The notes under the pieces: model-generated
The model's input: the letters and a program-made list of their open reading frames with translations, nothing else
The model's database searches: none
What the model was told of the DNA's origin: nothing
Translations under genes and position numbers: made by a program
Part shown: in pieces, positions 4,460-40,679 of the stretch
How positions within the stretch are numbered: the first letter of the stretch is position 1
Layout of the letters: each line of letters opens with the position of its first letter
Assembly (NCBI GenBank): GCA_030630935.1
Contig: DAOVMD010000001.1
Coordinates: 1 to 42,898, forward strand
Reading direction: 5' to 3'
DNA length: 42,898 nucleotides
Source: Candidatus Mcinerneyibacteriota bacterium
GTDB taxonomy: Bacteria > AUK180 > JAQVHJ01

Positions 4460-5600
4460 TTTCTAACAATGTTTGATAAATAATTTCAGCGATAATTTGG
4501 TTCCCTTGTTTATTAGTATGAGTATCATCAATAAACAATGTTTTATTTGAATAAATAAATCTTGGGTCTTTATTTATATCTACAAACATAATTTCTTTAT
4601 TATTTAATTTTTCTTTTATTTTCCCAAAATAAGAAGAATATAAATATTTCGCATTTGAATAATAAATTGACCAATCTTTATCCTGGGTTATTTTTATTTC
4701 CAATTTAGATGGGGTTTCTTTCATAACTACCGTTGGTTGTAAAAAAACAATATATTTAAAACTAAATGAGGATGATATTTTTTTCATCTTATAACAATTG
4801 TTTACAAAATATTGGATAATAGTTTCAGCTTTTTTATCTATGTTTTCTTTCGAATACTTTAGATCCATCTCTTTTTCTCTTTGAATTAATTTTTTATTCT
4901 TGAGCTTTATTGATACCTGTCTAAAGATATTGCTTTTGTTTAATAGATTAATAAAACCAAGAATAATATTTTGAAATATTTTTTGATCATTACTTATAAA
5001 TCTTTCAAGAGAATCATCAAGCTCATTATAAAGAGGTGATAAGCCTTGGTAGTTCTCAGTTATAATCCCCCAATTAATATCATTCCAACCCGTTAAAGAA
5101 ATAACAATATCCGGATTATAATCAATCATTTCATGTATTAGCAAAGCAAGTTCTTGCGAAGAGGTATATCCTGGAATTCCACAATTCAGAACCTCAATTA
5201 TGTTGTCTTTTTTTCCAAGCTCTTTAACAATGGTAGTAGAATCATCTTCCCATCCTAAATTAAACATTGATGAGCCTCCTAAAAATATAATTCTAATTTT
5301 ACCCGGGGGTTTAATTTTTGAAAACTCTTCTCCGCGAAACCCCTTTGAATTAATTTTGTATTTTGTTACTCCAGCGATTTTTTCTGTTGAATATCCTTTA
5401 TAAAAAACCAGGGGTTGACTTTGGAGAATGTATTCTCCATAACCTCCATATAATAAATTACCATTGAGTGAAACCATTGCAAATTGTTGTATATTTAAAT
5501 CTTTTATTGGAAATTTTCCAATGACATAATCAATAATCGTAAAAAAGATTAAGATTAAAAGTATTGTCGCTATCTTAAATATAGTTTGTTTAATCTTCAT
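4422..5600 (-). CDS. Membrane-anchored SGNH/GDSL-fold hydrolase or acyltransferase (first of three)
   Basis: A 392-residue protein with one N-terminal membrane anchor (about residues 8-28) and a large outer SGNH domain. The SGNH blocks are visible: IIFLGGSSM with the nucleophile at Ser110, the oxyanion-hole Gly in NCGIPGY, SLTGWND with Asn173, and the C-terminal FIDDTHTNKQG carrying the Asp358/His361 dyad. Such proteins cut or transfer acyl groups on extracellular glycans; the substrate cannot be read here. I chose ATG 5600. A GTG at 5639 would add 13 residues, but that stretch contains a promoter (-10 at 5608-5613), so translation from 5600 on a leaderless mRNA is more likely. The gene sits 43 bp after the GT-C-like gene (5644-7248) and repeats the SGNH/multi-spanning pairing seen twice more in this window. 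Confidence 0.8.
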   Translation of the reverse strand: MKIKQTIFKIATILLILIFFTIIDYVIGKFPIKDLNIQQFAMVSLNGNLLYGGYGEYILQSQPLVFYKGYSTEKIAGVTKYKINSKGFRGEEFSKIKPPGKIRIIFLGGSSMFNLGWEDDSTTIVKELGKKDNIIEVLNCGIPGYTSSQELALLIHEMIDYNPDIVISLTGWNDINWGIITENYQGLSPLYNELDDSLERFISNDQKIFQNIILGFINLLNKSNIFRQVSIKLKNKKLIQREKEMDLKYSKENIDKKAETIIQYFVNNCYKMKKISSSFSFKYIVFLQPTVVMKETPSKLEIKITQDKDWSIYYSNAKYLYSSYFGKIKEKLNNKEIMFVDINKDPRFIYSNKTLFIDDTHTNKQGNQIIAEIIYQTLLENEILENNKTKSE

Positions 5601-5607
5601 AATATAA

Positions 5608-5636
5608 AGTATATCACAAATTAAAAAAAAAGTCAA
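5608..5636 (-). promoter_or_regulatory. Promoter giving a probably leaderless SGNH mRNA
   Basis: On the minus strand TTGACT (5636-5631) and TATACT (5613-5608) are 17 bp apart with a T-rich spacer. The ATG begins at 5600, seven bases after the -10 box, so the predicted transcription start coincides with the start codon. Confidence 0.65.
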
Positions 5637-5643
5637 CACACTA

Positions 5644-7248
5644 CTAGGAATCTTTCTTTCTTAAATATACCTTATATTCCCCGATTGATTTAACACAAAA
5701 ATATTTATGTTTAATGTAAAAATTTAATTGCTTACAATTTCTTATTAATTTTCGAGAATTATATCCATCAAATTTTTCTTCTTCCAGCCAAATGATTAGT
5801 TTTACATTGTTTTTTTCAAGACTTTCTATTATCCTAAGTTGCTTCTCTGTAGTTGGTCTTAAAACCACGTCAATTAATGAATCATAATATGTTGGATTTC
5901 TCCGATTTGTCATGAAATATAATGGAGGAGCACCCCAGGGAACAACAAAAATGTAATCTTCTTCATTTGTATTTGTTAAAATTGTATCCACTAAATCTTG
6001 TGTAATTTTATAGCTCTTTTTTTCTGATGTATAATATTTTGAATGTTGGGATCTTACTATATATATTGGCTTAATTAAAAACTCTAAATCGATTAATGTT
6101 TGTAACACTCCTGTGATACTTATAAGCATAAGAATTGAAATCAACACTCCTTTAATTAATCTAATCGGTTTTTCTTTCTTTTCTAAAAGAATTATCAAAA
6201 AAGCCTGAAAATAAAAAACCGTATTAACTCTAAGGATGTGGTAATAATCAGAGCGACCAAATATCCTTGGTAACATTAAGATTCCCCAAATAATAAACAG
6301 TATAAGAAAGTGTTTTTTGGGTTTTTCTTTTAATAGTAATGACAATGTTAAAACTCCAAAAAACGTAGATATTAAAGGAAATAGATATGTAATTAACATA
6401 AATAGGTAATGTAATAAATGCCTGAGATATTCTGTTGAATTATGATGAAAGGTATGACTTAATAAATATTCCATATGAATTGTTGCTGAATCCATATATG
6501 GCAAACTTGAAACATTGAGGTGTTTTACCGATTCAATTAATGTCTCATTTAAAAATTTACTGAAATAATTTCCCAGATAAAGAAATTCAATAAATAAAAT
6601 TAAAATCATCGGCACAAGAAAAACAATTGTTATTTTAAGTATTCGTGAAAACATTTGTTTTTTATCGTTATAAATATATATCATATATATATATGAGGCA
6701 ATAAAAAATGGTACTATATCATAGAAACTAAAACACATAGAGAAACCGATAAAGATTGAAAAAAGAATTAGATATTTAGTTGTTTGTTGTTTTGAATATT
6801 GAAATAAAAAATAAATAGATACAATTATACAAAGTAAGTGCATTTCTATAAATCCCATCAAACAAAAAATGGAAGATATCCAGGCAGAAAACAGTGAATT
6901 TTTTGAGATATTATTCACCAAAACAAATATTAATACTCCTGCAACTATATATGAAAACCATTCTAAGACTAAAAGCGAAAAGCCATTACCTTGAAATATT
7001 TTCAATATTAATGCTGGAAGTAAAACTTCTCCAGGGGGAAAAAGCAGCCAATAATCAATATATGGCTTTTCGCCAAGTAATATTCTAAATGCATTGTTAA
7101 CATACTCTGCATCATCACCAAAGGGGATATAAAGGCAGACCTGTTTGAATCTTAATAAACTAAATAAGACGAAGAGAAATAAGACTATCAAATGTGGTGA
7201 TATTTTATTTATTGATCTAAACAAATTTTCAAATTCTTTGTTATTCAT
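5644..7248 (-). CDS. Multi-spanning GT-C-like glycosyltransferase (PMT/ArnT type)
   Basis: A 534-residue protein with roughly ten to twelve hydrophobic segments and a soluble C-terminal part (about 420-534). After the first helix (about 21-34) comes YIPFGDDAEYVNNAFRIL, with acidic residues Asp45, Asp46 and Glu48 in the first outer loop, then YWLLFPPGEVLLPA. This is the layout of GT-C enzymes such as ArnT/PMT, which move a sugar from a polyprenyl phosphate carrier to an acceptor outside the cytoplasmic membrane. The acceptor is unknown. A consensus promoter lies directly upstream (7255-7283), with the ATG six bases after the -10 box and no Shine-Dalgarno. The gene is followed at 43 bp by an SGNH protein. 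Individual GT-C families diverge strongly, so the class is likelier than any precise name. Confidence 0.72.
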   Translation of the reverse strand: MNNKEFENLFRSINKISPHLIVLFLFVLFSLLRFKQVCLYIPFGDDAEYVNNAFRILLGEKPYIDYWLLFPPGEVLLPALILKIFQGNGFSLLVLEWFSYIVAGVLIFVLVNNISKNSLFSAWISSIFCLMGFIEMHLLCIIVSIYFLFQYSKQQTTKYLILFSIFIGFSMCFSFYDIVPFFIASYIYMIYIYNDKKQMFSRILKITIVFLVPMILILFIEFLYLGNYFSKFLNETLIESVKHLNVSSLPYMDSATIHMEYLLSHTFHHNSTEYLRHLLHYLFMLITYLFPLISTFFGVLTLSLLLKEKPKKHFLILFIIWGILMLPRIFGRSDYYHILRVNTVFYFQAFLIILLEKKEKPIRLIKGVLISILMLISITGVLQTLIDLEFLIKPIYIVRSQHSKYYTSEKKSYKITQDLVDTILTNTNEEDYIFVVPWGAPPLYFMTNRRNPTYYDSLIDVVLRPTTEKQLRIIESLEKNNVKLIIWLEEEKFDGYNSRKLIRNCKQLNFYIKHKYFCVKSIGEYKVYLRKKDS

Positions 7249-7414: not shown

Positions 7415-8605
7415 ATGATAAATCTAACTGCTGGAGCCAATTTTTCTTTTGATAATATGAAAAGATGCTCAAAATGCATCCTTCCAGAAACATACCCAAA
7501 GATTACTTTCAATGAAAATGGGGTTTGCAACTATTGCATCAATCATACTCCAATAACTTCAAAAGGTGAGGAAGCTCTGCTTAAGGTTCTGGATAAATAT
7601 CGGAAAAATGATGGTTCATATGAATGTATTGTTCCCATTAGTGGAGGAAGAGACAGTTCCTTTGTTCTTTATTATTTGGTAAAAAAAATTAAGATAAAGG
7701 TCTTAGCTTTAACTGTTGATCATGGGTTTTTGCTCCCTTTAGCATTTAAAAATATCGAAAACATTACTAAATCTCTCAACCTTGATCATCAATTTATTAA
7801 AATACCAGAAAAAAAAATTCTTACTTCAAAAAATAATACAAAAATAAAATTTCGGGGGTGGGTAAAGAAGCCATCTATTAACACAATTATTCCTGTAATA
7901 AATGCTGGTGACAAAACCATGAATCACCTTATGGCTAAGTTTGCTTATAAGCGCGATATCCATGTAATTTTCGGTGGAAACATTGTTGGAACAACTGAAT
8001 TTGAGCATGATTATTTTAAGTTAGGATACATGGGTATTTTTCCGAATTATAAATGGAAATTTTCTTTTACCGAGAAATTAAATATTAACTTACATTATTT
8101 TTTGGAATTTATTAAAAATCCTTATAATTTTCACTATTCAATTTTTATAGAATATTTTTTAGGTGCATTAGTCTTTTTTTATGAAGATTTAATAAAACCT
8201 CCGAGTGTAGATTTTATTGGATTTTGGGATTATATCTATTGGAATGAAAAGAATATTATAAATACCATCACAGAAGAACTTAATTGGCAAAAAGCTTCCG
8301 ATACAACAACAACCTGGAGAATTGACGATGCTGCATATCCATTAATTAATTATTTATATTTAACTATTGTTGGATTTACTGAACACGATGAATTGTATAG
8401 TAAAATGATTCGGGAGGGGCAAATCGATAGAGAAACGGCACTGAAAAAGTGTTTATGTGACCATAAGCCTCGTCTTGATATAATAGAAGACAATTTAAAA
8501 TTTTTTAACATTAACAAAAAAGATTTAGATCATTCTTTAGAAATATACCGGAATAAATTTCTTCAAGAATTATTAAAAAACAATTCAAAGAATATATCTA
8601 AATGA
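7415..8605 (+). CDS. PP-loop N-acetyl-sugar amidotransferase-like protein (WbpG type)
   Basis: A 396-residue PP-loop ATPase related to sugar amidotransferases of surface-polysaccharide loci. A zinc-knuckle-like N-terminus has CSKC (Cys18, Cys21) and CNYC (Cys38, Cys41). It is followed by the ATP pyrophosphatase loop PISGGRDSSF (Ser76-Ser81) and ALTVDHGF. Family members use ammonia from a HisH/HisF-like partner to turn an N-acetyl group of a nucleotide sugar into an acetamidino group. No HisH/HisF-like gene is in this window, so a partner must lie elsewhere or the reaction differs. Residues about 200-280 are aromatic-rich and less typical. The start is well supported by AAAGGAGA five nt upstream. 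The stop overlaps the next start (ATGA), so it is co-translated with the SGNH protein, consistent with modification of the same sugar. Confidence 0.82.
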   Translation: MINLTAGANFSFDNMKRCSKCILPETYPKITFNENGVCNYCINHTPITSKGEEALLKVLDKYRKNDGSYECIVPISGGRDSSFVLYYLVKKIKIKVLALTVDHGFLLPLAFKNIENITKSLNLDHQFIKIPEKKILTSKNNTKIKFRGWVKKPSINTIIPVINAGDKTMNHLMAKFAYKRDIHVIFGGNIVGTTEFEHDYFKLGYMGIFPNYKWKFSFTEKLNINLHYFLEFIKNPYNFHYSIFIEYFLGALVFFYEDLIKPPSVDFIGFWDYIYWNEKNIINTITEELNWQKASDTTTTWRIDDAAYPLINYLYLTIVGFTEHDELYSKMIREGQIDRETALKKCLCDHKPRLDIIEDNLKFFNINKKDLDHSLEIYRNKFLQELLKNNSKNISK

Positions 8606-9717
8606 AAAAAACAATAAAAATAAGAATATTTAAAATAAGCCTTATTATTATTTTTGTATTATTATTTCTTATTTGTTCAGAATTCATACTTAGAAAATTT
8701 TCTCCTTTACCTATATTTTCTCCTTATCTTGATTATCCTCCATATAAAATAATCTCATTTAAATCAAACTTAAATGGCATTACATCACCAACAACATTTT
8801 CCACGAATAAGTGGGGATTTCGTGGAATAGATCCCCCAAAAGATTGGGATAATTATCATACAATTATAACCATTGGGGGAAGCACAACGCAATGTTTATT
8901 TCTCGATGATTCAAAAGCATGGCCCTTTATTCTTGAAAAAGAATTAACTGAAAAGAAAAATTCAAAGTTTTGGGTTGGAAACGCTGGCATTGATGGTCAC
9001 TCATCAACAGGACATTTATTTGTAATGAAAGAAGTAATTTTAAAAATTAAGCCCAAAACCGTGATTATGCTTGTGGGAACAAATGATCTTGCATGTTCTT
9101 TGACTGGTGAGATTTATAAACCGGAAAAGATCTTTTTAAAAAAACTAAATAAAAAAGGAATCTGTTACTTTCTTTTTTCCAATTTAAAAATATTACAAAT
9201 TTTAAATCTTTGGAAAGAAATTGTTTTTAATCGCAATGTGGTTATTAGTAAAGAAGTTGATTGGAATTTTATTCCTAAAAAACTTGAAACAGAAACCCTC
9301 CTACCTGAAGATTTAAGAAAGATTTTACCTTCTTTAAAAACTTTTCGATTAAATATAGAAGATATTATCCAATTATCTAAAGAAAATAACATTCGCATTA
9401 TTTTCCTTACTCAGCCCTCTGTTTATTCTGACAATAAGTTTTGGTTAAATAAAGAAACCCCTATTTTTTGGATTCCAAAACAAAAATACCATATTTCAGG
9501 AAATACAAAATTTAAACTATTAACTATTTTTAATAATGAATTAATTAAAATATGCAAAGAAAACAATGTTGAGCATTTTGATTTAGCATCAAATATTCCT
9601 CACAATTTTGAATATTTTTATGATGATGTTCATTTCAATGATAAAGGATCAATTTTAGTTGGAAAAGAAGTTGCAAATTATATGATTAAAACAATGGAGA
9701 AAACAGATACAAAATAA
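8602..9717 (+). CDS. Membrane-anchored SGNH/GDSL-fold protein (second of three)
   Basis: A 371-residue protein with a basic N-terminus and one strong membrane segment (about residues 10-30), then an SGNH domain. Motifs are TIGGSTTQ with nucleophile Ser94, GNAGIDGHSS, MLVGTNDL with Asn161, and the C-terminal FYDDVHFNDKG with the Asp341/His344 dyad. All catalytic blocks are present, so it is predicted to be an active esterase or O-acyltransferase facing the periplasm. It overlaps the amidotransferase-like gene by four bases and is followed by a multi-spanning protein at 9800 with its own promoter. The likely role is acylation or deacylation of the glycan built by this locus; the substrate is not determinable. 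Confidence 0.82.
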   Translation: MKKTIKIRIFKISLIIIFVLLFLICSEFILRKFSPLPIFSPYLDYPPYKIISFKSNLNGITSPTTFSTNKWGFRGIDPPKDWDNYHTIITIGGSTTQCLFLDDSKAWPFILEKELTEKKNSKFWVGNAGIDGHSSTGHLFVMKEVILKIKPKTVIMLVGTNDLACSLTGEIYKPEKIFLKKLNKKGICYFLFSNLKILQILNLWKEIVFNRNVVISKEVDWNFIPKKLETETLLPEDLRKILPSLKTFRLNIEDIIQLSKENNIRIIFLTQPSVYSDNKFWLNKETPIFWIPKQKYHISGNTKFKLLTIFNNELIKICKENNVEHFDLASNIPHNFEYFYDDVHFNDKGSILVGKEVANYMIKTMEKTDTK

Positions 9718-9799: not shown

Positions 9800-11767
9800 T
9801 TGGTAAATCGGAAAATTAAACTTATGTTATTAATTTTTTTTATATTCTTCTTCGCAATCGTTTTCCCAGGATATATATTTTATCTTAAGATAAAGCAACA
9901 TCTTAATTTCGAAGAAAGTTACTCTACTGTTTTATTCTTTTCTATTAATCTTGGTTTATTTATAAACGTAATATTATTTCTTATCTTATCAGTTACTAAA
10001 ATAAAGCTAAATGTTTTATATTTTTTATATCCTATTTTATTTATCTCTTTACTTGGATTTCATCTGAAAAAGATTAAGGCTCATATAGAAAATTTAAAGA
10101 TTAAAAAAGAAGAATGGTTTCTTCTTTTAATTCTTTTATTATCTTTCATTATCTTATTATTTAAAAAAGGTGAAATACCTATAGATATAAATTATCTTGT
10201 CCCTGTTTCAAGAAGCTTGGACGAAGGCTATCTTGTAAATAAACAGTTTGTCTTTACATCTGAAATTTTCGATCCAAGGTTTTCATTCAATCCTTATTGT
10301 TATATAATACTATTAATTAAATTATTTTCAAATTACTCCTTAATTTATATCTGGAGAAACATACCTTTTATTTGGGTTTTTTGTTCTTTAATTTCTTTAT
10401 ATTCTTTTTCAAATATTTACTTTAACAACCAAAAAGTTGGATTATATGTAATTTTAATTTTTTTTCTGCATTTCGGTGGCGTTTTTTTTAATATGATTGG
10501 TTTCACAACTTTTAGTAAACCTCTGCCTGTTCATTTATATGTTTATATTCCATTTCTATGGCTTATTGTCATGAAGTTTTTCAAAAATAATAATTTTATT
10601 TTATATCTTGTTTTATTCACCGCTTTTACTAATCTAATTTCATATAATCCGTTTTATTTAATTCTTGCCCTTTTTTCATTATTCCCTCTTTTTGTATATG
10701 AAACGATATATCGTCCCCAAGACACAATAAAAAAGACACACAAAATTTTATTTATATTTTTATTATGTTTTCCATTCTTAATTTTTAAGCTCATTATTTT
10801 TTCCAGTTCAAATCCAGGATTTTATGATCTGGTTTTTGTAAACACTTCATATTCTTTTAGAAATGTAATTATTTTCTTAAGTAAAAACGCATATATATTA
10901 AATCCCTATTATTTATTTAGAGTTGATTATAGTTTAAATTCGTATAGTTATTTTGCTTATCCAATTTCATCTATTATTGCTCTTTTTATAACACCATTTT
11001 TTTTCTTTTCAAAAGAATGGAAAAAGATTGAAATACGTCTATTGTTATTATGTATATTTTTTATCATCTTTATCGCTGAGAATCCCATTTTGTTTCCACT
11101 TCTTTCGAAATTTATTTCCCTAATTTATGCCCAGGCAATTGGAATTATAATACCCCATTTTATAATCACAGGATATGCTTGTTACTTAATCTTTAATTAT
11201 ATAGGTAAAAAATTTAAAAAATCAAAGAATATTATTCTATTATTATCCCTGCTAGTAATATTCCTTTGGTCTTTTAATCACATAAAAAATAATTATCATG
11301 TTCTAAAAAATGATTTTGTCAATAGAGAAAAATTATATGAACTACCTGAACCAATAAATTATATTAAATCAATGGGAATAGAAAATAAAATGTTTTTTTC
11401 AGATCCAACGTTAAATGATTTTATCTGCAGCTTCTCTAATAATTTTGTTTTTTATGTATATTCAACTGACAGCAATCCAAACGATCCTTTCTCAGTAGAA
11501 AGAGAGAATAAATTTAATGCAATCATAAAAGAGAATAATATTGATATAATCAAAAGTTTCTTTTTTATCAACAATATAGACTTCCTAGTAATTACGAAAA
11601 ATTATCCATCAAAAGAAAAATTAAACTTGATAAATTTAGAACAAATTTATTTTTGCAAAAAAGAATATAATATGTTTCCTCTTTATTTAAAGATAAAAGA
11701 AAATGATCTCTTTCCAATAGAATGGGAAGATGAAAATTATATTATGTTTAAAATATCTCAGAATTAA
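9800..11767 (+). CDS. Multi-spanning membrane protein, putative GT-C-like enzyme; start uncertain
   Basis: The longest open frame (655 residues) begins at a TTG without a ribosome site; the first ATG is at 9824. About twelve hydrophobic segments are followed by a soluble C-terminal domain (about 520-655). An outer loop near 126-145 carries acidic residues (IPIDINYLVPVSRSLDEG), as in GT-C proteins, but no diagnostic motif is clear. It resembles the protein at 18416-20428 in overall plan: an early F/L-rich PGY helix, an acidic loop after helix four or five, and a C-terminal domain ending in ..IDFLVITK versus ..IDYLVLEK. A leaderless-type ATG at 9769 would join this frame if one T were missing from the T8 run at 9794-9801, so the annotated start may be displaced by an indel. 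It stands next to an SGNH gene, as do its two counterparts. Confidence 0.7.
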   Translation: MVNRKIKLMLLIFFIFFFAIVFPGYIFYLKIKQHLNFEESYSTVLFFSINLGLFINVILFLILSVTKIKLNVLYFLYPILFISLLGFHLKKIKAHIENLKIKKEEWFLLLILLLSFIILLFKKGEIPIDINYLVPVSRSLDEGYLVNKQFVFTSEIFDPRFSFNPYCYIILLIKLFSNYSLIYIWRNIPFIWVFCSLISLYSFSNIYFNNQKVGLYVILIFFLHFGGVFFNMIGFTTFSKPLPVHLYVYIPFLWLIVMKFFKNNNFILYLVLFTAFTNLISYNPFYLILALFSLFPLFVYETIYRPQDTIKKTHKILFIFLLCFPFLIFKLIIFSSSNPGFYDLVFVNTSYSFRNVIIFLSKNAYILNPYYLFRVDYSLNSYSYFAYPISSIIALFITPFFFFSKEWKKIEIRLLLLCIFFIIFIAENPILFPLLSKFISLIYAQAIGIIIPHFIITGYACYLIFNYIGKKFKKSKNIILLLSLLVIFLWSFNHIKNNYHVLKNDFVNREKLYELPEPINYIKSMGIENKMFFSDPTLNDFICSFSNNFVFYVYSTDSNPNDPFSVERENKFNAIIKENNIDIIKSFFFINNIDFLVITKNYPSKEKLNLINLEQIYFCKKEYNMFPLYLKIKENDLFPIEWEDENYIMFKISQN

Positions 11768-11860
11768 ATTATTCATATTTGTTTTAACGTTTCCAGAAAT
11801 TTTTACAATAGAAAAGTTATAATATTCTAAAGATATAAGCTCCTTATAAATTATTCTTCG

Positions 11861-12046
11861 TCAAAATAACCTCTCTATGTACTTTCTGTTTAATTTTTTT
11901 ATAACTTCCAAACTAAAGTAATTAAAAGTTTTGGGGTGTAACCCATGTCCGTGCATTTGCAAGTCAATGATATTCTTTTCTGTTATTACTAAGTCAAAAT
12001 GTTCCTTTTTTCTATAGGATAATGTTAATATTTTGATGTTTATGAT
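11861..12046 (-). pseudogene. C-terminal gene fragment, family uncertain
   Basis: A 61-residue open frame without a start codon ends at TGA 11863-11861. Its reading is clearly protein-like: a FDLVITEKNIID stretch, then MHGHGLHPKTFNYFSLEVI and a basic tail. The DLVIT strand followed by a loop and a late F..FSLE.I helix is compatible with the end of a small alpha/beta enzyme such as a methyltransferase, but no signature motif is present. It appears to be the end of a gene whose front has been lost. Confidence 0.4.
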
Positions 12047-12314
12047 TTAAGATTGACCCAGAACCACTCAATACAGTCGAGTATCTGGACGCAGGAATTG
12101 GGGTTATTGGCAATATTAAAGGAGACTATTTTTTTCTATCGTTTGTTTCTTCGTGTATTTGTTGTATTGATATTCATTTTTTATATTTATTTTTATCTTT
12201 ATTAATGCTATTGCTGACCTCTAACTACAGAGGTAAATTATACCATTTTAAAGAATTATTCAGCAACCCAAAAGTTAACATTTTGATATTTTAACATCAA
12301 GTAATATTTTTTTC

Positions 12315-12342
12315 TTGACAAACCACCTAAATATGATATAAT
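12315..12342 (+). promoter_or_regulatory. Promoter of the O-antigen ligase operon
   Basis: A perfect TTGACA (12315-12320), a 16-bp spacer and a perfect TATAAT (12337-12342). The predicted leader is about 16 nt and contains the ribosome site AAGGA (12354-12358) six nt before the ATG at 12365. Confidence 0.78.
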
Positions 12343-12364
12343 ATTTATTCAATAAGGATTACTT

Positions 12365-15300
12365 ATGAATAATTTTATATATAATTTAAATCATATAAAA
12401 CGATTTTCTCTTTACTTCCTGGTGTTTATGCTTCCTTTAATCTTTTCACCTGTGAATTTCTTAGTATTTGAGATTCCCAAGATCCTGTTTATCTCATTTA
12501 TGGCATTGGTCTTTGCTATAATCTCCTTTATTGAACTCTGGTCTAAAACCGAGACTGAACAATCAAAACTCCTTAATCATTATATTTTAATATTTATCAT
12601 CATATCCTTAATATTAGTTGGATATGGTCTCGTGTTTAATAACTCTGGAAACATTCGTTTCTTAGAATTAACTACCCCTGTTCTTTTTCTCTTTGTGATA
12701 TTTACATCCATCACAGACTCTGTCAGATTTACAATGCTAAAAGTAGGGTTATTCTCTCTATTGATTGTCTCTATCTACGGTATACTACAAAGCCAAGGAA
12801 TTGATCTTGATATCTGGGCAGGAAATATTGGGAAGAAAACTGTATTCTCAACCATTGGAAATCCAAACACTGCTGCAGAGTTCTCCTTCCTGCTCTTTCC
12901 GGTTATTGCTTATTTCTTCCTATCCTCAACTCGAAAGGGAGTAAAGTTCTGGTACGCTTTACTGGGAATCGTTTCTTTACTTTTCAGTTTCATCTGCCAA
13001 TCCAAAGGAGCTATACTTTCTTTTATCATTGCTTCATTTATTATTGTTTTTTTTATGATAAAGTCTAAAAAAAAGAAAATAGCCGTTTCTCTTGTTATTA
13101 CCGGTTTAATTACCATTGGCATATTCTTTTCAAGTTTTATCTTTTTAAGGGATACAAGTGCAGGGAATTTTATCTCTCAATATTTTCCAAACAAACTTCC
13201 GTTTCAAAACCGAATTGCGGTGTTTACTAATACTCTAAAAACCATCCGGAATAATTCAATACTGGGCGTTGGACCTGGAAATTTCCAGTATTACTATACA
13301 TCTGAATTTTTAAACAACGAGTACATTGTAAATAAGCCCCTGGATCCACATGCGGTTCTGGTTAAAAGAGCCCATAATGAATTCTTGCATATCTCTACCG
13401 AATTTGGAATATTGGGATTGGGATTCTTGGTTCTATTCTGGATATTGACATTCAAAGGAGGACTCATACTTTGTAGAAAAAACATTTGGTATTATTTTGT
13501 TCTTTGGGCAGTTGTTTTTATTTTCCTCGAAAGTTTTATTAATTTCCCCCTACAAAATCCAACTGTCCTAATTTACTTTATTTTGATTCTTTCTTTTATT
13601 TTCAAAAAGTTTAATTTCCCCAAAAAATTACCACACAAATATACTCCTATATTAATTTCTATTTCTGGAATTATTCTTCTGGGAATATGTATTTTATCTA
13701 TAAAAACATTCATTTCTGATACTTATCTTCTTAAATCCAATCAGCTTATCTCTAACGGAGATCTGGTCCGAGCAAGAGTGTATTTAAAGAAATCAATAAA
13801 AGCAGACCCAAAGAATTTCATTGCCAGAACTAACCTTGGTGTGGTGGAATACAACCTGAAAAACTATTCAGAAGCTGAAAAAATCCTGCTTAAAAGTAAA
13901 AGGGGAATTATTGATTTCAACCTTTTCTTTAATTTGGGAATGCTTTATCAAAATACCGGTGATTTAAATAACGCTTCTGTAAATTTACAAAAAGCTTTAT
14001 CTTTGAATCCATATCATGAAGACCTGAAATTCAAGTTAATTAATATATATTTATTCAGATTTCAACTTAAAAGAGCCTTTGAAATAATTACAAGATTCAA
14101 GCTCTCTCCTCATACCTCAGAACAATTCATGACATTTGGTTTTTTACATAAACTAAACGGAAACTTTTGGCAAGCACAATGTGATTTTAAGCAAGCCTTT
14201 AATGATTCAAGATTTCAAATAATAATTTTAAAAAATGCACCCATACCAAGAGATTTTTACCAAGATTATTCTTTATTCAATAAAACTTCCAACCCTCTCT
14301 TAGAAATTGGTATATTATATTACTTACAACAACCAAAAAAACAAATCCTGTTTAAAATTGACCAATATTTAAAGGTTATTGACCAGGAAGAAGTTAAAAA
14401 TTATATATTGGGTATTAAAGCGGAACTAAATAATGATTTTATCTCCGCAGTTAAATATTACAAAAAAAACCGCGGTAAAAACCTTAACCTTGATTTAGCT
14501 AGAGTTTATTTAAAACAAGGAAACCTTGATAATTTCCTTATTTCTATCAAAGATGTATTTAATCAATTTCAACTTCATGATAATGTAGATGAATATTCTC
14601 TACCGTTCTTCAATGAAGATATTAATGTTTTAGAATTATACCGAAAGTTCTTTAGTGGTTCAAGTTTAAAAGATCTTATTAAATCGTATAAAATCTGTTC
14701 TCTTTCTTCTTCTTCATCGTCCTTATTTCTTTATTTTCCAGTTTATTTTAATTTCATAAACGATCAATTCGATGAACTTTATCGTGAATTGAAAAGAGAT
14801 GAATTATTATACAAACATTCATTACATCAAGTAAATGAAAATTATTTAGCAATTTTACCAATTTTTGCTCCCGCTTATCTTAAATTTGAAGAGCTTCCAA
14901 AAGAAAACCACCTATTTTTTGAGTTTTTTCTGTTTACAGAGTTAGAAAATAATTTGATTTTAAATGATGAGGGCTTAATTCCCGTATTCCGAAATTATTT
15001 ATCTTCAAAATATGACATTTCAATCAACAATATCCCATTAAAAATTAAAGATCTAGAAATTTATTTAATTAAATTGTCATGTTTGGATATTGATGAACAT
15101 AAAATTGATTTAGCTTTTTTCTACTTATTAAAAGGAAAACATTCCAAGTGTATACAAATTCTTGAAACGTTAAAGAAAAAAGACTCTAAAAGATATCAGT
15201 TATTAAAAATTTTAACACATTTTCATTTAACAAACGATGAAATAGATGTTGAACTCTTTTACTCTTCAGATGAAATGAAAGAGTTTGGTAATCAAAATGA

Positions 15301-15415
15301 TTTCCCTTTAAATATCTATGAAATTTATGCAAAAATTCTTACAACTCCATATTTACAATTAAAAAATAAGGATAAAACCTTTGAAGCCAACTTTAACAAA
15401 TATTCTCAAATGTAA
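12365..15415 (+). CDS. O-antigen ligase/polymerase-like protein with long TPR-containing C-terminal half
   Basis: A 1016-residue protein. Residues about 15-450 hold some ten to twelve membrane helices of the Wzy_C/O-antigen ligase family. The conserved outer loop near 300-350 has GVGPGNF and then RAHNEFLHISTEFGILG, whose HN..L.. E.G pattern is the family signature. After the last helix (about 430-450) comes a soluble region with tetratricopeptide-like repeats at about 460-570 (NQLISNGDLVRARVYLKKSI and related units). About 450 further helical residues follow, less clearly repeated. Members ligate or polymerise lipid-linked glycans, or transfer them to protein, in the periplasm; the sequence does not separate these. 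The TPR tail suggests an acceptor or partner protein. It is the first gene of an overlapping operon, with a strong promoter and ribosome site. Its end overlaps the next gene by 35 bp. Confidence 0.85.
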   Translation: MNNFIYNLNHIKRFSLYFLVFMLPLIFSPVNFLVFEIPKILFISFMALVFAIISFIELWSKTETEQSKLLNHYILIFIIISLILVGYGLVFNNSGNIRFLELTTPVLFLFVIFTSITDSVRFTMLKVGLFSLLIVSIYGILQSQGIDLDIWAGNIGKKTVFSTIGNPNTAAEFSFLLFPVIAYFFLSSTRKGVKFWYALLGIVSLLFSFICQSKGAILSFIIASFIIVFFMIKSKKKKIAVSLVITGLITIGIFFSSFIFLRDTSAGNFISQYFPNKLPFQNRIAVFTNTLKTIRNNSILGVGPGNFQYYYTSEFLNNEYIVNKPLDPHAVLVKRAHNEFLHISTEFGILGLGFLVLFWILTFKGGLILCRKNIWYYFVLWAVVFIFLESFINFPLQNPTVLIYFILILSFIFKKFNFPKKLPHKYTPILISISGIILLGICILSIKTFISDTYLLKSNQLISNGDLVRARVYLKKSIKADPKNFIARTNLGVVEYNLKNYSEAEKILLKSKRGIIDFNLFFNLGMLYQNTGDLNNASVNLQKALSLNPYHEDLKFKLINIYLFRFQLKRAFEIITRFKLSPHTSEQFMTFGFLHKLNGNFWQAQCDFKQAFNDSRFQIIILKNAPIPRDFYQDYSLFNKTSNPLLEIGILYYLQQPKKQILFKIDQYLKVIDQEEVKNYILGIKAELNNDFISAVKYYKKNRGKNLNLDLARVYLKQGNLDNFLISIKDVFNQFQLHDNVDEYSLPFFNEDINVLELYRKFFSGSSLKDLIKSYKICSLSSSSSSLFLYFPVYFNFINDQFDELYRELKRDELLYKHSLHQVNENYLAILPIFAPAYLKFEELPKENHLFFEFFLFTELENNLILNDEGLIPVFRNYLSSKYDISINNIPLKIKDLEIYLIKLSCLDIDEHKIDLAFFYLLKGKHSKCIQILETLKKKDSKRYQLLKILTHFHLTNDEIDVELFYSSDEMKEFGNQNDFPLNIYEIYAKILTTPYLQLKNKDKTFEANFNKYSQM

Positions 15416-16799
15416 TACATGCGGATCATATAAGCTTTCAGAAGAAAAACGTTTTCTAATTTGTAATAATTGTGGGAATAAATACAAGATTATAAATGAA
15501 AATACAATTAAATCCATTAAAGATGAATCAAAAAAGTATTACTTTGATGATATTGATATTTCTGATTTCTCCCAAGAACATAACACTCCCTTCTTCCTAT
15601 TCTCTGAGAAAATAATAAATAAAAACTACACCAAGTTAAAAACAATTCTCTCCGAATTAAAAATTGATCATCAAATTTATTATTCTTTGAAAACAAATTT
15701 TAATAACTTTCTTCTTGAAATAATTAATAAGAAGTTTAATTATGCTTCAGCAGCCTCAATTCTTGAGTTATCAGCTGCAATGAAAGCAGGATTCAAAGGT
15801 TCAGACATAAGCTATGACGGACCTGTTATGCGAAGATACGAGGTTGAATATGCAATTGAAAACGGTGTTAAATTATTTAATATTGACTCAATTGAATCTG
15901 CTGTTATTTTAAATGAAACTGCTGTTAAATTGAATAAAAAACTTAAAATTTCGCTAAGGTTAAATTTTAACTTCGGCAGCAAATTTTTCAGACTAATTCA
16001 TGTTTTTAATGAGCGGTTTGGTTTTTCTTATATTTATTTTAATTATTTTATGAAGAAATTTAAAACTTTTAAAAATTTGAATATAATAGGACTAGGGTTT
16101 CATTTAGGGTCTCAGATATCAAATGTTGAAATTTATTTGAAGGCTTTTAAAAAGTTAATTAAATTAATATATGAAATTGATAAAAAGTACCGAATAAGTA
16201 TTTCTCATATAAATATCGGTGGCGGATTTCCAGCATTAAATATTAAAAAGAATACTTTTTTTAAACTTGGTTTAAGATATTTAAAAATCTCTAATAAATC
16301 AAATAATAATAGAAACATGCTTATCCGGAAGTTATTAAACGGTATATCTATAATCCTTAAAAAGAAAAACCTTCCCATTAAAATCTTTCTTCAGCCTGGA
16401 AGAAGTATTGTTGGAGATGCAGGAATCCTGATAACAAAAATTTATTCGATAAAAAAAGAGTGGGTTTTTCTCGATGCAAGCAATAATTTTCTTCCCGAAA
16501 CTTTCTTAACTGTTAACCGGGATATAATTAATATCTCAAAACTTGGGGCAAGAAAAGATTTCAAATATTCCTTTGCAGGAAGAACACTCTGTGCAGATAT
16601 TTTTAATATAAACGTAAACCATCCCCGTGCAGATATTGGTGATATAATAGTTATAAACTCATCGGGTGCTTACAGTTTATCAAGAGCAAATAATTTTACA
16701 ACACTAACTCCACCAATCTGGTTAATTACAGAAAGTGGTCAAATAAACTGTGTCTCATCCGGAGAAGAGGTAGAAGATGTCATCAGGCGATTTAAATGA
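15381..16799 (+). CDS. Zinc-ribbon/PLP-dependent decarboxylase fusion (fold III, LysA/ODC-like)
   Basis: A 472-residue two-part protein. Residues 11-34 form a small zinc ribbon (Cys11, Cys14, Cys28, Cys31) like Trm112-type ribbons. Residues about 50-472 are an alanine-racemase-fold PLP decarboxylase: Schiff-base Lys104 in YSLKTN, GLGFHLGSQ with His241, phosphate-binding GGGF (280-283), and QPGRS at 338-342, where most relatives have EPGR. Near the C-terminus are RTLCADIF with Cys404 and the SSGAYS motif with Tyr431. Relatives decarboxylate diaminopimelate, ornithine or related amino acids; here the Glu-to-Gln change and the glycan operon argue for another substrate. The TTG start has AAGGA seven nt upstream and overlaps the ligase gene by 35 bp. 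The 3' end overlaps the first methyltransferase gene by 23 bp. Confidence 0.85.
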   Translation: MKPTLTNILKCNTCGSYKLSEEKRFLICNNCGNKYKIINENTIKSIKDESKKYYFDDIDISDFSQEHNTPFFLFSEKIINKNYTKLKTILSELKIDHQIYYSLKTNFNNFLLEIINKKFNYASAASILELSAAMKAGFKGSDISYDGPVMRRYEVEYAIENGVKLFNIDSIESAVILNETAVKLNKKLKISLRLNFNFGSKFFRLIHVFNERFGFSYIYFNYFMKKFKTFKNLNIIGLGFHLGSQISNVEIYLKAFKKLIKLIYEIDKKYRISISHINIGGGFPALNIKKNTFFKLGLRYLKISNKSNNNRNMLIRKLLNGISIILKKKNLPIKIFLQPGRSIVGDAGILITKIYSIKKEWVFLDASNNFLPETFLTVNRDIINISKLGARKDFKYSFAGRTLCADIFNINVNHPRADIGDIIVINSSGAYSLSRANNFTTLTPPIWLITESGQINCVSSGEEVEDVIRRFK

Positions 16800-17571
16800 A
16801 GGATTTGAGTTTTGGGATAAGGTAGGGAAATCATTTATTGACTATTCCACTGCTCCTACAACAAAGTATTATTTTGATGAAGAAATTACCGCAATAAAGA
16901 AACACTTTGAATTATCTCCTGAAAAAACTTTTTTAAAATTAGACCTATGGAATGAAGCAATTAATACTAATATTCTATTTGAAGTAGCAAAATCGGGGAT
17001 TGAATGTTTTGGACTCGATATATCTGAAGGTATTGTTCAGCGTGCCTATAATAAATCCCGTTTTGAGGGAGTAGATATAAACTTTGTAATTGGAGATATT
17101 TTTAATCTTCCATTTAAGAAAAATTCTTTTGATTATTTATATACAATGGGAACAATTGAACATTCAAAAAACATGGAATCGATTGTTTCTCAAATCTATC
17201 AAGTACTCAAGCCCGGTGGGAAAGCAATTATAGGATTACCAAATAGGCTGGATCCTTTTTTCCGCCCGCTATTAAAAAATATAATGGAGCTCTTTAATAT
17301 ATATTCGTTTGGATTAGAAAAGTCATTAGATGTTGCAGAATTAAGAAATCTGTTTTTTAAGAATAAATTCAGAATTTTAAATTCCGGAAGCATGTTGTTT
17401 CTTCCCGGAATATTACGAATAATAGATCTTTTCTTTTTTAAATATTTTAGGTTTCTAACAAAAGTTACGGAAATACTATATAAGCCTTTTCAATTTTTAA
17501 AAAGAAAAATCCCATTTCTTAGACTTTCCGGTTATTTAATTTATATTGTAGTGGAGAAGAAGCAATGGTAA
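16777..17571 (+). CDS. Class I SAM-methyltransferase-fold protein with altered motif I
   Basis: A 264-residue Rossmann methyltransferase fold. The acidic ribose-binding residue is clear (FGLDIS, Asp81), as are FVIGDIFNLPF with Asp107, FDYLYTMGTIEH at 118-129 and the LKPGGKAIIGLP strand at 144-155. However, the glycine-rich SAM-binding motif I is replaced by KLDLWNEA (54-61), with no GxGxG. Either SAM binds differently or the protein has another role. A C-terminal basic/hydrophobic stretch (about 195-260) may contact the membrane. It overlaps the decarboxylase gene by 23 bp and the next methyltransferase gene by 7 bp, so the three are probably co-translated and act on one substrate, for example methylation of an amino or sugar residue of the glycan (inference). 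Confidence 0.75.
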   Translation: MSSGDLNEGFEFWDKVGKSFIDYSTAPTTKYYFDEEITAIKKHFELSPEKTFLKLDLWNEAINTNILFEVAKSGIECFGLDISEGIVQRAYNKSRFEGVDINFVIGDIFNLPFKKNSFDYLYTMGTIEHSKNMESIVSQIYQVLKPGGKAIIGLPNRLDPFFRPLLKNIMELFNIYSFGLEKSLDVAELRNLFFKNKFRILNSGSMLFLPGILRIIDLFFFKYFRFLTKVTEILYKPFQFLKRKIPFLRLSGYLIYIVVEKKQW

Positions 17572-18419
17572 TTCAAGAAAATATTGACTTTTGGAATGAA
17601 GCTGTAAGTCGCAATAAAGAAATATCCGTTATTGGATTCAATGCCCTTGATAACTACCCCATGGCTGAAGATCATGGAGAACTTAGAGAAGCTAAACATT
17701 TCTTCAAACCAATCTCCGGGGGAAAAAAACTTGACATCAGCTGTGGATATAGTAGATTTCTTTTTGAATATGCTGAGAAAGGATTGGAATGTCAAGGTTT
17801 TGATTTCTCTCCTGAAATGATAAAAATAGGAAAAATTTCTGCAGAATCTAAAAAATTAAAAATTGCTTTTTATGAAAATACTATTGACAACTTTAATCTT
17901 CCAAATATTAAATTCTATTATATCTGGTGCCACGATGCAACAATGTATCTTTCCCGTTATGAAATATCTAAATTATTCAATTTAATAAACCGGTATTTGA
18001 AAAAGGATGGAATCGCTTTTGTTGAGTTTCGAAATAAATTTTATGTTTTTGCTCTCTTTACAGAATTATCCAAATTTTTTCTGAAAACTATTTATCCTGG
18101 ATTTCGACATGCGTATTCTATATTAGATGCAAAAGCTTTTTCAAAAAATGCTAATTTGATAATTAAGGATATTTATGCAATAAGCTCAATTCTCTTTCCT
18201 CTTTATATACCTAAAAACTCTTTTGGTGGGTTAAAATTTTCAACAAAAGGAATGCCCGATGAAATAAAAACAAAATTTATTCCATTGTTTCCCGTTTTCA
18301 TTATAAAGTTATTCCAATTTTTATTTTTTTCTTCTTTAAAAAAAATATCTAAAGCCGGCTTTATATTCCCTGCTTATATTTCAAAAGAATTTATTTTTAA
18401 TTCTGGAAAAGAAAAATGA
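17565..18419 (+). CDS. Class I SAM-dependent methyltransferase
   Basis: A 284-residue methyltransferase-fold protein. Motif I is KLDISCGYSRF (55-65), close to the usual LD.GCG.GR, followed by the acidic QGFDFS with Asp80. Later strands have WCHDATMYLSR, where the usual D....l position carries a His/Asp pair, and LKKDGIAFVEF. The C-terminal third is rich in Phe and Lys and may be membrane-associated. It overlaps both neighbours (7 bp upstream, ATGA downstream), so its expression is tied to the decarboxylase operon. Together with the preceding protein it gives two tandem, clearly different methyltransferase-like enzymes. The substrate is unknown; the target may be the decarboxylase product or a terminal sugar. 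Confidence 0.8.
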   Translation: MVIQENIDFWNEAVSRNKEISVIGFNALDNYPMAEDHGELREAKHFFKPISGGKKLDISCGYSRFLFEYAEKGLECQGFDFSPEMIKIGKISAESKKLKIAFYENTIDNFNLPNIKFYYIWCHDATMYLSRYEISKLFNLINRYLKKDGIAFVEFRNKFYVFALFTELSKFFLKTIYPGFRHAYSILDAKAFSKNANLIIKDIYAISSILFPLYIPKNSFGGLKFSTKGMPDEIKTKFIPLFPVFIIKLFQFLFFSSLKKISKAGFIFPAYISKEFIFNSGKEK

Positions 18420-20428
18420 CTTTTCATAAAAAGAATATTGGTTTAATGTTTGACTTTATTTACCTTTTCTCCGGAATTTTTATCTTACTGGCTCTCATTA
18501 TAAAAGTTACGTTTAATCCTCTCATTTCAGCTTTTGCAATTTTTTATTTTTTCCTCTTGATGCCTGGATATTCCCTAGTTAAGATTTTTAAAATAAACAT
18601 TTCATATCCTCATGAATATTTCAATCTTTCCTTTGTGATAGGATTGGCTGTTTTCTCAGTTTTCAGTACATTTTTTCTCGTTACTGAAATAACTTTTACA
18701 AAAGCGATCGTTCTTCTTACAATTTTTTCTATCTCCATATTTATATTTTACAAAATAAAAAGCAGGGAGGGGTTCTCATATAAAAAAAATTATGAACAGA
18801 ACTTTTTAAATTTATTCCTTATTACATTAATGGCAATATTCTGGATATTAATTATTATTTTTAAAGCTCCCGGAACGATGGATAGTTTGACTACAACTTC
18901 TTATATTTCTAAACTTGCTAATAGCACTAGAATAATCTTAATAGATGGATTCTATTCAAATAGACCCTATGATATAATCTGGTTTAACCCATGGGTTGTA
19001 TTCAATGCAATTGCTGCTAAAATCTCTAAGGTTGAATATATTTCATTATTTTCTGTTTTTCCTATACTTTTAATGCCGTTAACTGTTTTTAGTTTTTTTT
19101 ATTTTACCGAAAAGGTTTCTGGAAGTTCAAAAATTGCTTCTATTTCAGTAATTATTTTTCTCCTATTTCACGGTTTAAATGAGGGTTTATGGATATGGAG
19201 AACAAGTTCTTACCCAATGATACTCACTAATTTTATTATTATTCCCACACTTTTAGGAATATTGTTTTCAAAAAAAAATAAAAACATTATGCTTTGGGTG
19301 GCAGGTTTAATTATTTTTCTAATATGTGCAATTCACCTTATTTCTTTTTTCAATATAATTGTTATTCTCTTTAGCATATTAATTATAAATTTAATTTTCA
19401 ATAGTAAGAAAAGTCCTAATAATTCAAAATCATTTTTCATCGTTATAGTTATTGGATTGGTTTTATCAACTATATTGATTTTTTTATTACAACGTTATAA
19501 TCAACACATAGGTCTTTCAAATCAATTTCATCATGTTAAATATGGAATTTTAGAAATATCAACCAATGCTTTCATTGTAGAACCATTAAAATTATTCGTT
19601 CCTCATTATCATGTAAAACCTTGTTTTTCAACCAGGTACTTTTACTGGTTCTGCACAATTTCAGTATTCCTTTTAATTCCTTATTTTAAAAAATCAAATT
19701 CTGCAAAATATTCCTTAACCATTACTTTCGCTGCTTTGTTCATAATGTTAAACCCAATAATAACAGGTATATTAAGTAATATTACTAGTTATGCTGCAAT
19801 TGGTAGAATTAACCAAATTATTCCTTATGAGTTTATTTTAGGAATTGTTATTGTTTTTTATCTTAATTCATTTATTAATCATAAAAATAAACGAGTTTTC
19901 CTGGAAAAAATCATTGTCTTGTTAATTTTCCTAACACTTTTCTTCGGATCACTATTCGTAAATAAAAGATTAGTCAGGTTTTTCCAATCTGAAAAGTCAA
20001 CAAGCTCCTCAATCTGGAAGATGGATTACGTTATTAATGGCTGCCTTCCTCTATATCTCCATAATCCTAAGGCTTATTACCCCGTACTAAAGTTTTTAAG
20101 AAATATTAAGGAACAATCTATAATTGCTGCTGAGCCGGAACTCTCTCTATTTATCTCATCATATACAAAACATTTCGTTTTCCTAACTGTTCCAAACCAA
20201 AGTCCAATTGGAGCGTATGATCAAATTGATAGAATGGAGGCATATCAATCTCTCAAATCTAAGAATAGTAACTCGGATATAATAAAAAAGATTCTTGTGG
20301 AATATGAGATAGATTATTTGGTTCTTGAAAAAGAGAATTCTTATCTAATAAATAAGTTTGAAAACATCAATTATTTAAAAATCATTTATAATCAAGACGG
20401 ATATCTTGTTTTTAAAATTATTTATTAA
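18416..20428 (+). CDS. Multi-spanning membrane protein, putative GT-C-like glycosyltransferase
   Basis: A 670-residue protein with about thirteen hydrophobic segments and a soluble C-terminal domain of roughly 130 residues. The early helix has FFLLMPGYSL. After helix four or five the loop FKAPGTMDSLTTTSYI places Asp156 outside the membrane, in the position where GT-C enzymes keep a catalytic acid; YDIIWFNPW follows. The C-terminal domain (IAAEPELSLFIS, then IDYLVLEK) resembles that of the protein at 9800-11767, so the two are probably paralogues. A role in sugar transfer from a polyprenyl carrier on the periplasmic side is inferred from the fold plan only. It starts with an ATGA overlap on the methyltransferase gene, and its 3' end overlaps the convergent SGNH gene by 11 bp. 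Confidence 0.72.
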   Translation: MTFHKKNIGLMFDFIYLFSGIFILLALIIKVTFNPLISAFAIFYFFLLMPGYSLVKIFKINISYPHEYFNLSFVIGLAVFSVFSTFFLVTEITFTKAIVLLTIFSISIFIFYKIKSREGFSYKKNYEQNFLNLFLITLMAIFWILIIIFKAPGTMDSLTTTSYISKLANSTRIILIDGFYSNRPYDIIWFNPWVVFNAIAAKISKVEYISLFSVFPILLMPLTVFSFFYFTEKVSGSSKIASISVIIFLLFHGLNEGLWIWRTSSYPMILTNFIIIPTLLGILFSKKNKNIMLWVAGLIIFLICAIHLISFFNIIVILFSILIINLIFNSKKSPNNSKSFFIVIVIGLVLSTILIFLLQRYNQHIGLSNQFHHVKYGILEISTNAFIVEPLKLFVPHYHVKPCFSTRYFYWFCTISVFLLIPYFKKSNSAKYSLTITFAALFIMLNPIITGILSNITSYAAIGRINQIIPYEFILGIVIVFYLNSFINHKNKRVFLEKIIVLLIFLTLFFGSLFVNKRLVRFFQSEKSTSSSIWKMDYVINGCLPLYLHNPKAYYPVLKFLRNIKEQSIIAAEPELSLFISSYTKHFVFLTVPNQSPIGAYDQIDRMEAYQSLKSKNSNSDIIKKILVEYEIDYLVLEKENSYLINKFENINYLKIIYNQDGYLVFKIIY

Positions 20429-21389
20429 TATTTGGAATGATTACTTCTTTAATTAAACCTATTAGACTTTTATATCCTGAAAGCGAATAATGACTTTCAT
20501 CAATGAAATCATCTTTATCCTTAATGTGTTGGTTCGCTCTGATCACAGAAATCTCTTTTTCTTTGCCGATTTGAACAACAATGTCATTGTAAGCTAGAAC
20601 ATTAAAACGCCAATTGTCCTCTGGAATTATTGCATGAGGATTAATCGCTCTGGTTAATAATATTATTTTTATTCTTTCTTCCGAACAAATTTTTATCATC
20701 TCGTTATAGTTTGCTTCGAATTCTGTTTTTGAAACGCGTGGAATTTTCTTCAAATTACTTTTCTTTCTTATAATTGAATAAAAGTAATGATAAGTTCTAC
20801 TATTTAATAAAAATCTTTTCATAACAATATTTATCTTTGACGTTTTTTTTATTATTTCGGAATCAGTATAGCTTTTTACAGGAACAGCATCATTCCAACC
20901 AAAATTAATTATCACTATATCCGGATGATGTTTAATAACCTGCTTCAACAAAATAAGACCCTGAGTTGATGAATAACCATAAATGCCTAAATTATAAACT
21001 TCATATTCATGTCTACTTTTATTTTTATTCAATGATTCTTCTAATAGTTCCGGATACGAATATTTTAGGTTACCAAGGGTGTTTGAATCACCAATGCAAA
21101 ATATTCTAAGCTTTCCCTTTTTCTTTTCTTCTGGGAATTCTCTTGTATGAAAGCCATAAGAATTAAAAGCAGGTGAATTAGGATTACCTCTCCATAAGAG
21201 ATTTTCATCTTCTGTAAAATGACCATCATTATACATATGATGTAATCTCCAGTCGTCTTCAATTACTAATGCCTTTTCCATTGTCTTCACACCAAAAAAT
21301 GCAAAAGTATATTCGAGGATGAAAAACAATACTATAGGAATGGAAATAGCAAATATTATTTTTGCTAAAAGATTTTTCTTTATTTTCAT
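20418..21389 (-). CDS. Membrane-anchored SGNH/GDSL-fold protein (third of three)
   Basis: A 323-residue protein with one N-terminal helix (about 9-30) and a compact SGNH domain. FCIGDSNTLG carries the classical GDS with Ser102. LGIYGYSS supplies the oxyanion Gly, NFGWND has Asn166, and the C-terminal IDESHYSLSG carries the Asp297/His300 dyad. This is the most canonical GDSL protein of the three. It is the last gene of the nine-gene Wzm/Wzt operon (its start overlaps the GT4 stop by one base) and converges with the multi-spanning gene at 18416. It could be an O-acetyl esterase or acyltransferase acting on exported glycan; direction and substrate are not visible. Confidence 0.82.
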   Translation of the reverse strand: MKIKKNLLAKIIFAISIPIVLFFILEYTFAFFGVKTMEKALVIEDDWRLHHMYNDGHFTEDENLLWRGNPNSPAFNSYGFHTREFPEEKKKGKLRIFCIGDSNTLGNLKYSYPELLEESLNKNKSRHEYEVYNLGIYGYSSTQGLILLKQVIKHHPDIVIINFGWNDAVPVKSYTDSEIIKKTSKINIVMKRFLLNSRTYHYFYSIIRKKSNLKKIPRVSKTEFEANYNEMIKICSEERIKIILLTRAINPHAIIPEDNWRFNVLAYNDIVVQIGKEKEISVIRANQHIKDKDDFIDESHYSLSGYKSLIGLIKEVIIPNINK

Positions 21390-38229: not shown

Positions 38230-38255
38230 TTTTATTAATCCTCCGGATTAGCTAT

Positions 38256-40679
<2,424 letters not shown>

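Follow-up and report, generated by a model that had tools for sequence, protein, structure and literature searches.

The window, by which we mean the whole 42,898-nucleotide stretch of DNA analysed here, is contig DAOVMD010000001.1 (C138 in our set) of a 3.16-Mb Candidatus Mcinerneyibacteriota metagenome-assembled genome (MAG) that is 80% complete; seven genomes made up our sample of the phylum. Within a glycan gene cluster, the window encodes a protein that joins a Trm112-like zinc ribbon to a domain of the pyridoxal 5'-phosphate (PLP)-dependent decarboxylase fold, hereafter the PLP protein. The next two genes encode methyltransferase-fold proteins, MT1 and MT2. The features of the three genes are as follows.

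15381-16799, + strand: ribbon-PLP gene, a single continuous open reading frame (ORF) of 472 aa
15381-15530, + strand: N-terminal Trm112-like zinc ribbon with Cys11, Cys14, Cys28 and Cys31 (CxxC-x13-CxxC), assigned from Pfam Trm112p, the cysteines of the orthologue and an AlphaFold2 (AF2) model
15537-16796, + strand: PLP-dependent decarboxylase domain of the alanine-racemase fold (type III), assigned from Pfam PF02784, phmmer, AF2 and Foldseek
15690-15692, 16392-16394 and 16590-16592, + strand: key residues of the PLP domain, respectively Lys104, Gln338 of the QPGR motif and Cys404
16777-17571, + strand: MT1, a class I S-adenosylmethionine (SAM)-methyltransferase-fold protein (Pfam Methyltransf_11, 65 bits; methyltransferase fold in AF2)
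17565-18419, + strand: MT2, a class I SAM-dependent methyltransferase with an LDISCGYSR motif (Pfam Methyltransf_25, 50 bits)

The ribbon-PLP gene starts with TTG, and a ribosome-binding site, AAGGA (15368-15372), lies 8 nt upstream. The gene shares 35 bp with the preceding Wzy_C/O-antigen ligase gene and 23 bp with the MT1 gene. A 7-bp overlap joins MT1 to MT2, and a 4-bp overlap joins MT2 to the gene of a second membrane protein, giving an operon that extends to 20428. A preliminary description of this DNA had counted the first three overlaps correctly, and the ribbon/PLP-decarboxylase fusion that it reported is borne out by the single ORF, in which the four cysteines and Lys104 are all present.

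The PLP protein matched the Pfam families Orn_Arg_deC_N (PF02784) at 100 bits and Orn_DAP_Arg_deC (PF00278) at 23 bits, just above the cut-off, and phmmer matched it to the diaminopimelate (DAP) decarboxylase 1twi at 4.9e-35. Its AF2 model is an alanine-racemase-fold decarboxylase with a mean predicted local distance difference test (pLDDT) score of 87. Foldseek searches with this model returned D-ornithine/lysine decarboxylase and DAP decarboxylase at 1e-33 to 1e-32, as well as BtrK, FigC and SbnH. In the alignment, Lys104, His241, the GGG loop, Q338PGR, Arg341, Cys404 and Tyr431 line up with the PLP-enzyme family. Collectively, these matches place the protein, by its predicted fold, among the alanine-racemase-fold PLP decarboxylases. 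Decarboxylase chemistry is not assumed, because Gln replaces Glu at the pyridine-nitrogen position in both this protein and its orthologue.

The PLP-MT1-MT2 linkage is conserved in a second genus

The sole other ribbon-PLP protein that we found comes from a different genus within the family, in a MAG from the Sandtown metagenome (G001, contig C98, which is JAQVHJ010000031.1). It is 48% identical to the window protein. The four ribbon cysteines, QPGR, the GRTLC-A/S-DIFNINV loop and the greater part of the active site are retained. Directly downstream lie orthologues of MT1 (7696-8484 of the orthologous contig; 48-50%, about 49%, identity) and MT2 (47%), in the same order as in the window and with coupled translation. 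The MT1 gene there begins with ATG at 7696 and the stop codon of the PLP gene ends at 7712, an overlap of 17 bp, and a 2-bp gap separates MT1 from MT2. By blastp, the 11.6-kb orthologous contig also carries orthologues of a WbuX-like amidotransferase (59%), a membrane protein (53%) and a GT2 glycosyltransferase (49%) of the window. The gene order and strands of these common neighbours differ between the two genomes, whereas PLP-MT1-MT2 remains together.

The linkage between the ribbon-PLP protein, MT1 and MT2 is thus conserved across genera. The arrangement is not due to chance, because the orthologue, from a different genus, matches it in domain order and in the two methyltransferase genes that follow. 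A decarboxylase-methyltransferase linkage in related genomes had been chosen beforehand as a point on which the preliminary description could fail, and it was found. The conserved linkage to a Wzy_C ligase that was also proposed did not hold, since no gene for this ligase lies on the 11.6-kb orthologous contig. A B12-binding radical SAM protein is encoded at 3210-4631 of that contig; none of the window genes compared is orthologous to it.

A profile search of about 390 genomes from across the domain revealed no further ribbon-PLP protein. A peptide-pattern scan of genome contigs returned the same orthologue again and two distant relatives, with no new ribbon-PLP protein; such scans can miss diverged members, and the apparent rarity is no proof of rarity. 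No ribbon-PLP protein was found in the viral contigs. The best plasmid and phage matches to the PLP protein were 19-27% identical and mostly aligned only downstream of the ribbon. On a Salmonella plasmid, a decarboxylase/acetyltransferase resembling MccE of microcin C (3929-5695) has no neighbouring MccD and no special kinship to the window PLP protein.

The active site is altered at Gln338, the Cys loop and the specificity helix

We aligned the window protein with 48 homologues from across the bacteria (49 sequences). Position 338 is Glu in the 47 other homologues and Gln only in the window protein and its orthologue. The change of EPGR to QPGR that had been noticed earlier is therefore real, but it describes the active site incompletely, as the Cys loop is altered too. 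In this loop LC-A/S-D replaces CESGD: the Cys and Asp are kept and two residues between them are lost. The ribbon, Gln338 and the loop shortened by two residues each occur only in the two orthologues among the 49 sequences. In the same pair, the LIRP specificity helix has lost its Arg (PE in its place) and the Glu of CES is replaced by Ala or Ser. In the FigC structure paper, the Glu faces the pyridine nitrogen of PLP and stabilises the carbanion, and the Cys loop and the 3-10 specificity helix set the substrate (PMC7857480). Alanine racemase has Arg at the pyridine-nitrogen position (PMC6411801).

The window protein shares with LysA (TIGR01048; 1twi, 2p3e) the fold, the Schiff-base Lys, the His stacking residue, the GGG phosphate loop, the Arg of PGR, the Cys and the Tyr. 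In contrast to LysA, it has a ribbon, Gln in place of Glu and a glycan operon; its Cys loop is two residues shorter and lacks the Glu, and the specificity-helix Arg is lost. In a tree of the homologues the two orthologues group together on a long branch with full support, outside the LysA (CES) and CMNID groups, although the tree was a quick one without bootstraps and the placement of long branches in it is unsure.

The ribbon is related to ribbons linked to methyltransferases

The ribbon scored 20.0 bits against Trm112p (PF03966) within the whole protein, below the cut-off of 22, and above it as an isolated N-terminal 60-aa segment (24.9 bits) and in the genome search (24.5 bits). The AF2 model shows a beta-ribbon at residues 17-45 with moderate confidence (pLDDT about 60-75). 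Cys11, Cys14, Cys28 and Cys31 are all invariant in the orthologue. Only two other proteins in the phylum matched Trm112p above the cut-off, and both carry the ribbon N-terminal to a class I methyltransferase.

G000, contig C203, 1495-2565: Trm112-like ribbon fused N-terminally to a class I methyltransferase, directly after a GT4-like glycosyltransferase gene
G006, contig C86, 769-1617: Trm112-like ribbon fused N-terminally to a class I methyltransferase

The ribbon on contig C86 is 35% identical to that of the PLP protein over 37 aa, and none of 1000 shuffled sequences reached its score, to which the four common cysteines contribute. By sequence, the ribbon of the PLP protein is thus kin to methyltransferase-linked ribbons. 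A LysW-like carrier ribbon was considered and rejected (LysW profile score 14.2, cut-off 27).

Trm112 proteins are methyltransferase activators that promote SAM binding, and TRMT112 enables HEMK2 to bind SAM; bacterial Trm112 domains fused to methyltransferases are known, and a 2017 review calls their role unknown (PMC5372719). The window ribbon shares with the Trm112/YcaR zinc-knuckle proteins (PF03966) a CxxC-x13-CxxC ribbon of ~45 residues. Those proteins are free-standing or fused to methyltransferases, whereas the window ribbon is fused to a PLP enzyme. A role as a Trm112-type methyltransferase partner is better supported than one in holding a carrier, because the isolated ribbon matches Trm112p above the cut-off and the other such ribbons of the phylum sit on methyltransferases. 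Binding to and activation of a methyltransferase are predicted functions, of which co-translation with MT1 and MT2 is only a suggestive sign.

In MT1, motif I is replaced by KLDLWNEA (16936-16959), K[LI]DLWNEA in both orthologues, and neither orthologue has the SAM-binding glycine motif (DxGxGxG/GxG). Apart from the orthologue, no strong relative of MT1 was found in 366 genomes. Foldseek searches with the AF2 model of MT1 returned the methyltransferase fold, with the archaeal Trm112-partner methyltransferase 6f5z at rank 10 among many methyltransferases. The degenerate motif I fits, without proving, a ribbon that acts in trans on MT1. The MT2 orthologue has the motif LDIGCGYGR. The best-scoring characterised relatives of the two methyltransferases in the PDB include phosphoethanolamine N-methyltransferases (PMT-1/PMT-2, AtPMT), which differ in their low identity to MT1 and MT2 and in that MT1 lacks motif I. 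In the serine-to-phosphocholine pathway, paired methyltransferases likewise act downstream of a decarboxylation step.

A possible pathway and its alternatives

Several relatives of the PLP protein decarboxylate conjugated amino acids, namely BtrK (acyl carrier protein-bound Glu), AcsE (O-citrylserine), SbnH and MccE (PMC7857480). BtrK (7ru7), FigC (7kh2), SbnH (6knh), AcsE and MccE fall into one superfamily clade with LysA. They are the likely functional analogues of the window protein, the analogy being decarboxylation after conjugation. Where the position is readable they keep the Glu (ESGR in BtrK, E287 in FigC, EPGR in the MccE-like protein), in contrast to the Gln of the window protein. 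To our knowledge, no alanine-racemase-fold decarboxylase of conjugated amino acids has a ribbon or shares a glycan cluster with two methyltransferase genes. Nothing useful on a glycan pathway that combines a decarboxylase with methyltransferases came from searches of the literature. Decarboxylation of a carrier-bound substrate, as by BtrK, was rejected: no carrier gene, and no acyl-carrier domain, was detected among the genes scanned in the window and the orthologous contig.

We favour, with a probability of about 0.4, a repurposed PLP decarboxylase that acts on a conjugated amino acid, with a ribbon that docks on and probably activates the methyltransferases, and methylation of the resulting amine. 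We infer the following catalysis, substrate, order of steps and ribbon-methyltransferase contact. The enzyme, related to DAP decarboxylase and of the alanine-racemase fold, would act on an alpha-amino acid that a glycan, lipid or nucleotide precursor already carries, and decarboxylate it to an amine. The Trm112-type ribbon would dock onto, and probably activate, one or both of the co-translated methyltransferases, most likely MT1 with its degenerate motif I. Methylation of the amine or a neighbouring position would follow within this complex, before the polymer is assembled. A more specific version seems doubtful to us: the ribbon would have moved from a methyltransferase to the PLP enzyme, would activate the degenerate-site methyltransferase in trans, and would thereby tie the decarboxylation of an amino acid on the glycan to methylation of the amine that results.

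Several observations weigh against the favoured pathway. Gln338 could weaken decarboxylation, and the likeness of MT1 and MT2 to N-methyltransferases is a generic class I similarity. The ribbon of the orthologue has the four cysteines yet no Trm112p profile match. The Pfam scan of window genes revealed no enzyme that would attach the amino acid (adenylation domain, ATP-grasp or acyl carrier). No more than two orthologues are known, and the MAGs that contain them are incomplete.

Alternatively, the PLP domain may convert serine or another amino acid to a small free amine that further enzymes of the glycan pathway consume, while the methyltransferases act independently on sugar hydroxyls and the ribbon is only structural. 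O-methylation of glycans is common, as is generally known, the kinship of the methyltransferases is generic, and the operon includes other, unrelated functions. This explanation is nevertheless somewhat unlikely, as the tight PLP-MT1-MT2 order is kept across genera while other neighbours are reshuffled, and this type of ribbon is otherwise linked to methyltransferases in the phylum. It is also unlikely that the PLP protein is no decarboxylase at all and instead carries out another fold-III reaction (racemisation or retro-aldol) or is a PLP-binding pseudoenzyme that scaffolds the methyltransferases. The confinement of Gln338 to the two orthologues, with Glu in 47/47 other homologues, speaks for it, together with the role of Glu in carbanion stabilisation (PMC7857480) and the Arg of alanine racemase (PMC6411801). 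In contrast, the remaining catalytic residues are retained, the Cys among them, and conservation of these sites at <50% identity between the orthologues implies selection for function.

The pairing of a methyltransferase-fold protein with an alanine-racemase-fold decarboxylase has a precedent in MccD/MccE of microcin C (PMC10491745, PMC7857480). In a similar scheme, one of the methyltransferases would transfer the 3-amino-3-carboxypropyl group of SAM to a glycan or phosphate, the PLP enzyme would decarboxylate it, and methylation of the product may be the task of the other methyltransferase. This would account for the absence of an amino-acid-activating enzyme, and the SAM site of MT1 is unusual. 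The locus differs from MccD/MccE in its glycan setting, its two methyltransferase genes and the lack of a GNAT domain on the decarboxylase. The methyltransferase profiles matched MccD (5fcd) only weakly among many methyltransferases, at E 4e-4 to 1e-4, far below N-methyltransferases, and in the tree the PLP domain is no closer to the MccE-like protein than to other families. Specific kinship to MccD/MccE was accordingly rejected, and we regard this scheme as quite improbable. Least credible, and very improbable indeed, is a diverged LysA that supplies lysine. LysA is the closest named family by score, and neither genome yielded a PF02784 protein other than the ribbon-PLP protein. However, the NCBIfam LysA model TIGR01048 gave 210 bits for the window protein and 192 bits for the orthologue, far below its cut-off of 297.9, the Arg and Glu that recognise DAP are absent, and both orthologues lie in glycan loci. 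Five genomes of the class (G002-G006), 91-96% complete, have DAP epimerase and no PF02784 protein, so LysA is not inherited in the lineage and the PLP gene is not an inherited LysA. Because the DAP-recognition residues are gone and the LysA model failed, a LysA identity was rejected and the protein is, as judged from its residues, not one of lysine biosynthesis. Together with the shortened pocket loop, this agrees with the earlier view that it is no ordinary lysine or polyamine enzyme.

The arrangement suggests an undescribed enzyme team that may make methylated amines on surface sugars. Should the more specific version be true, it would give Trm112-type ribbons their first enzymatic partner in a glycan pathway of bacteria, and the PLP protein would be a decarboxylase that works with Gln facing the pyridine nitrogen. 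The surface glycans of bacteria would also gain a kind of amine decoration not described so far. As the ribbon is carried by the partner enzyme and not by the methyltransferase, the role of bacterial Trm112 domains becomes open to a simple test, and the natural Glu-to-Gln variant could serve to study cofactor use in alanine-racemase-fold decarboxylases.

Neighbouring genes of the window

The three genes are surrounded by the following features.

959-1651, + strand: GT2 glycosyltransferase, polyprenyl-phosphate-sugar-synthase-like; 49% identity in the orthologous locus
2978-4459, - strand: PRK07208-type FAD oxidoreductase; in the orthologous locus only a paralogue with 30% identity precedes the PLP gene
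7415-8605, + strand: homologue of WbuX-like PP-loop N-acetyl-sugar amidotransferases (TIGR03573, 152 bits, cut-off 203); 59% in the orthologous locus
9800-11767, + strand: large membrane protein, putatively GT-C-like from its size and topology, with no Pfam match; 53% in the orthologous locus
12365-15415, + strand: Wzy_C/O-antigen ligase with a TPR domain (Pfam Wzy_C, 54 bits)
18416-20428, + strand: second large membrane protein, with no Pfam match; not on the orthologous contig

The glycan cluster also encodes three divergent paralogues that resemble SGNH/GDSL hydrolases (4422-5639, 8602-9717 and 20418-21389) and may be O-acyl transferases or esterases. About 600 bp (11768-12364) separate the conserved membrane-protein gene from the Wzy_C gene; this stretch contains no long ORF and has no Rfam match. 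The glycan cluster is adjoined by gyrA, gyrB, a DciA-like gene and dnaN at 35692-42265.

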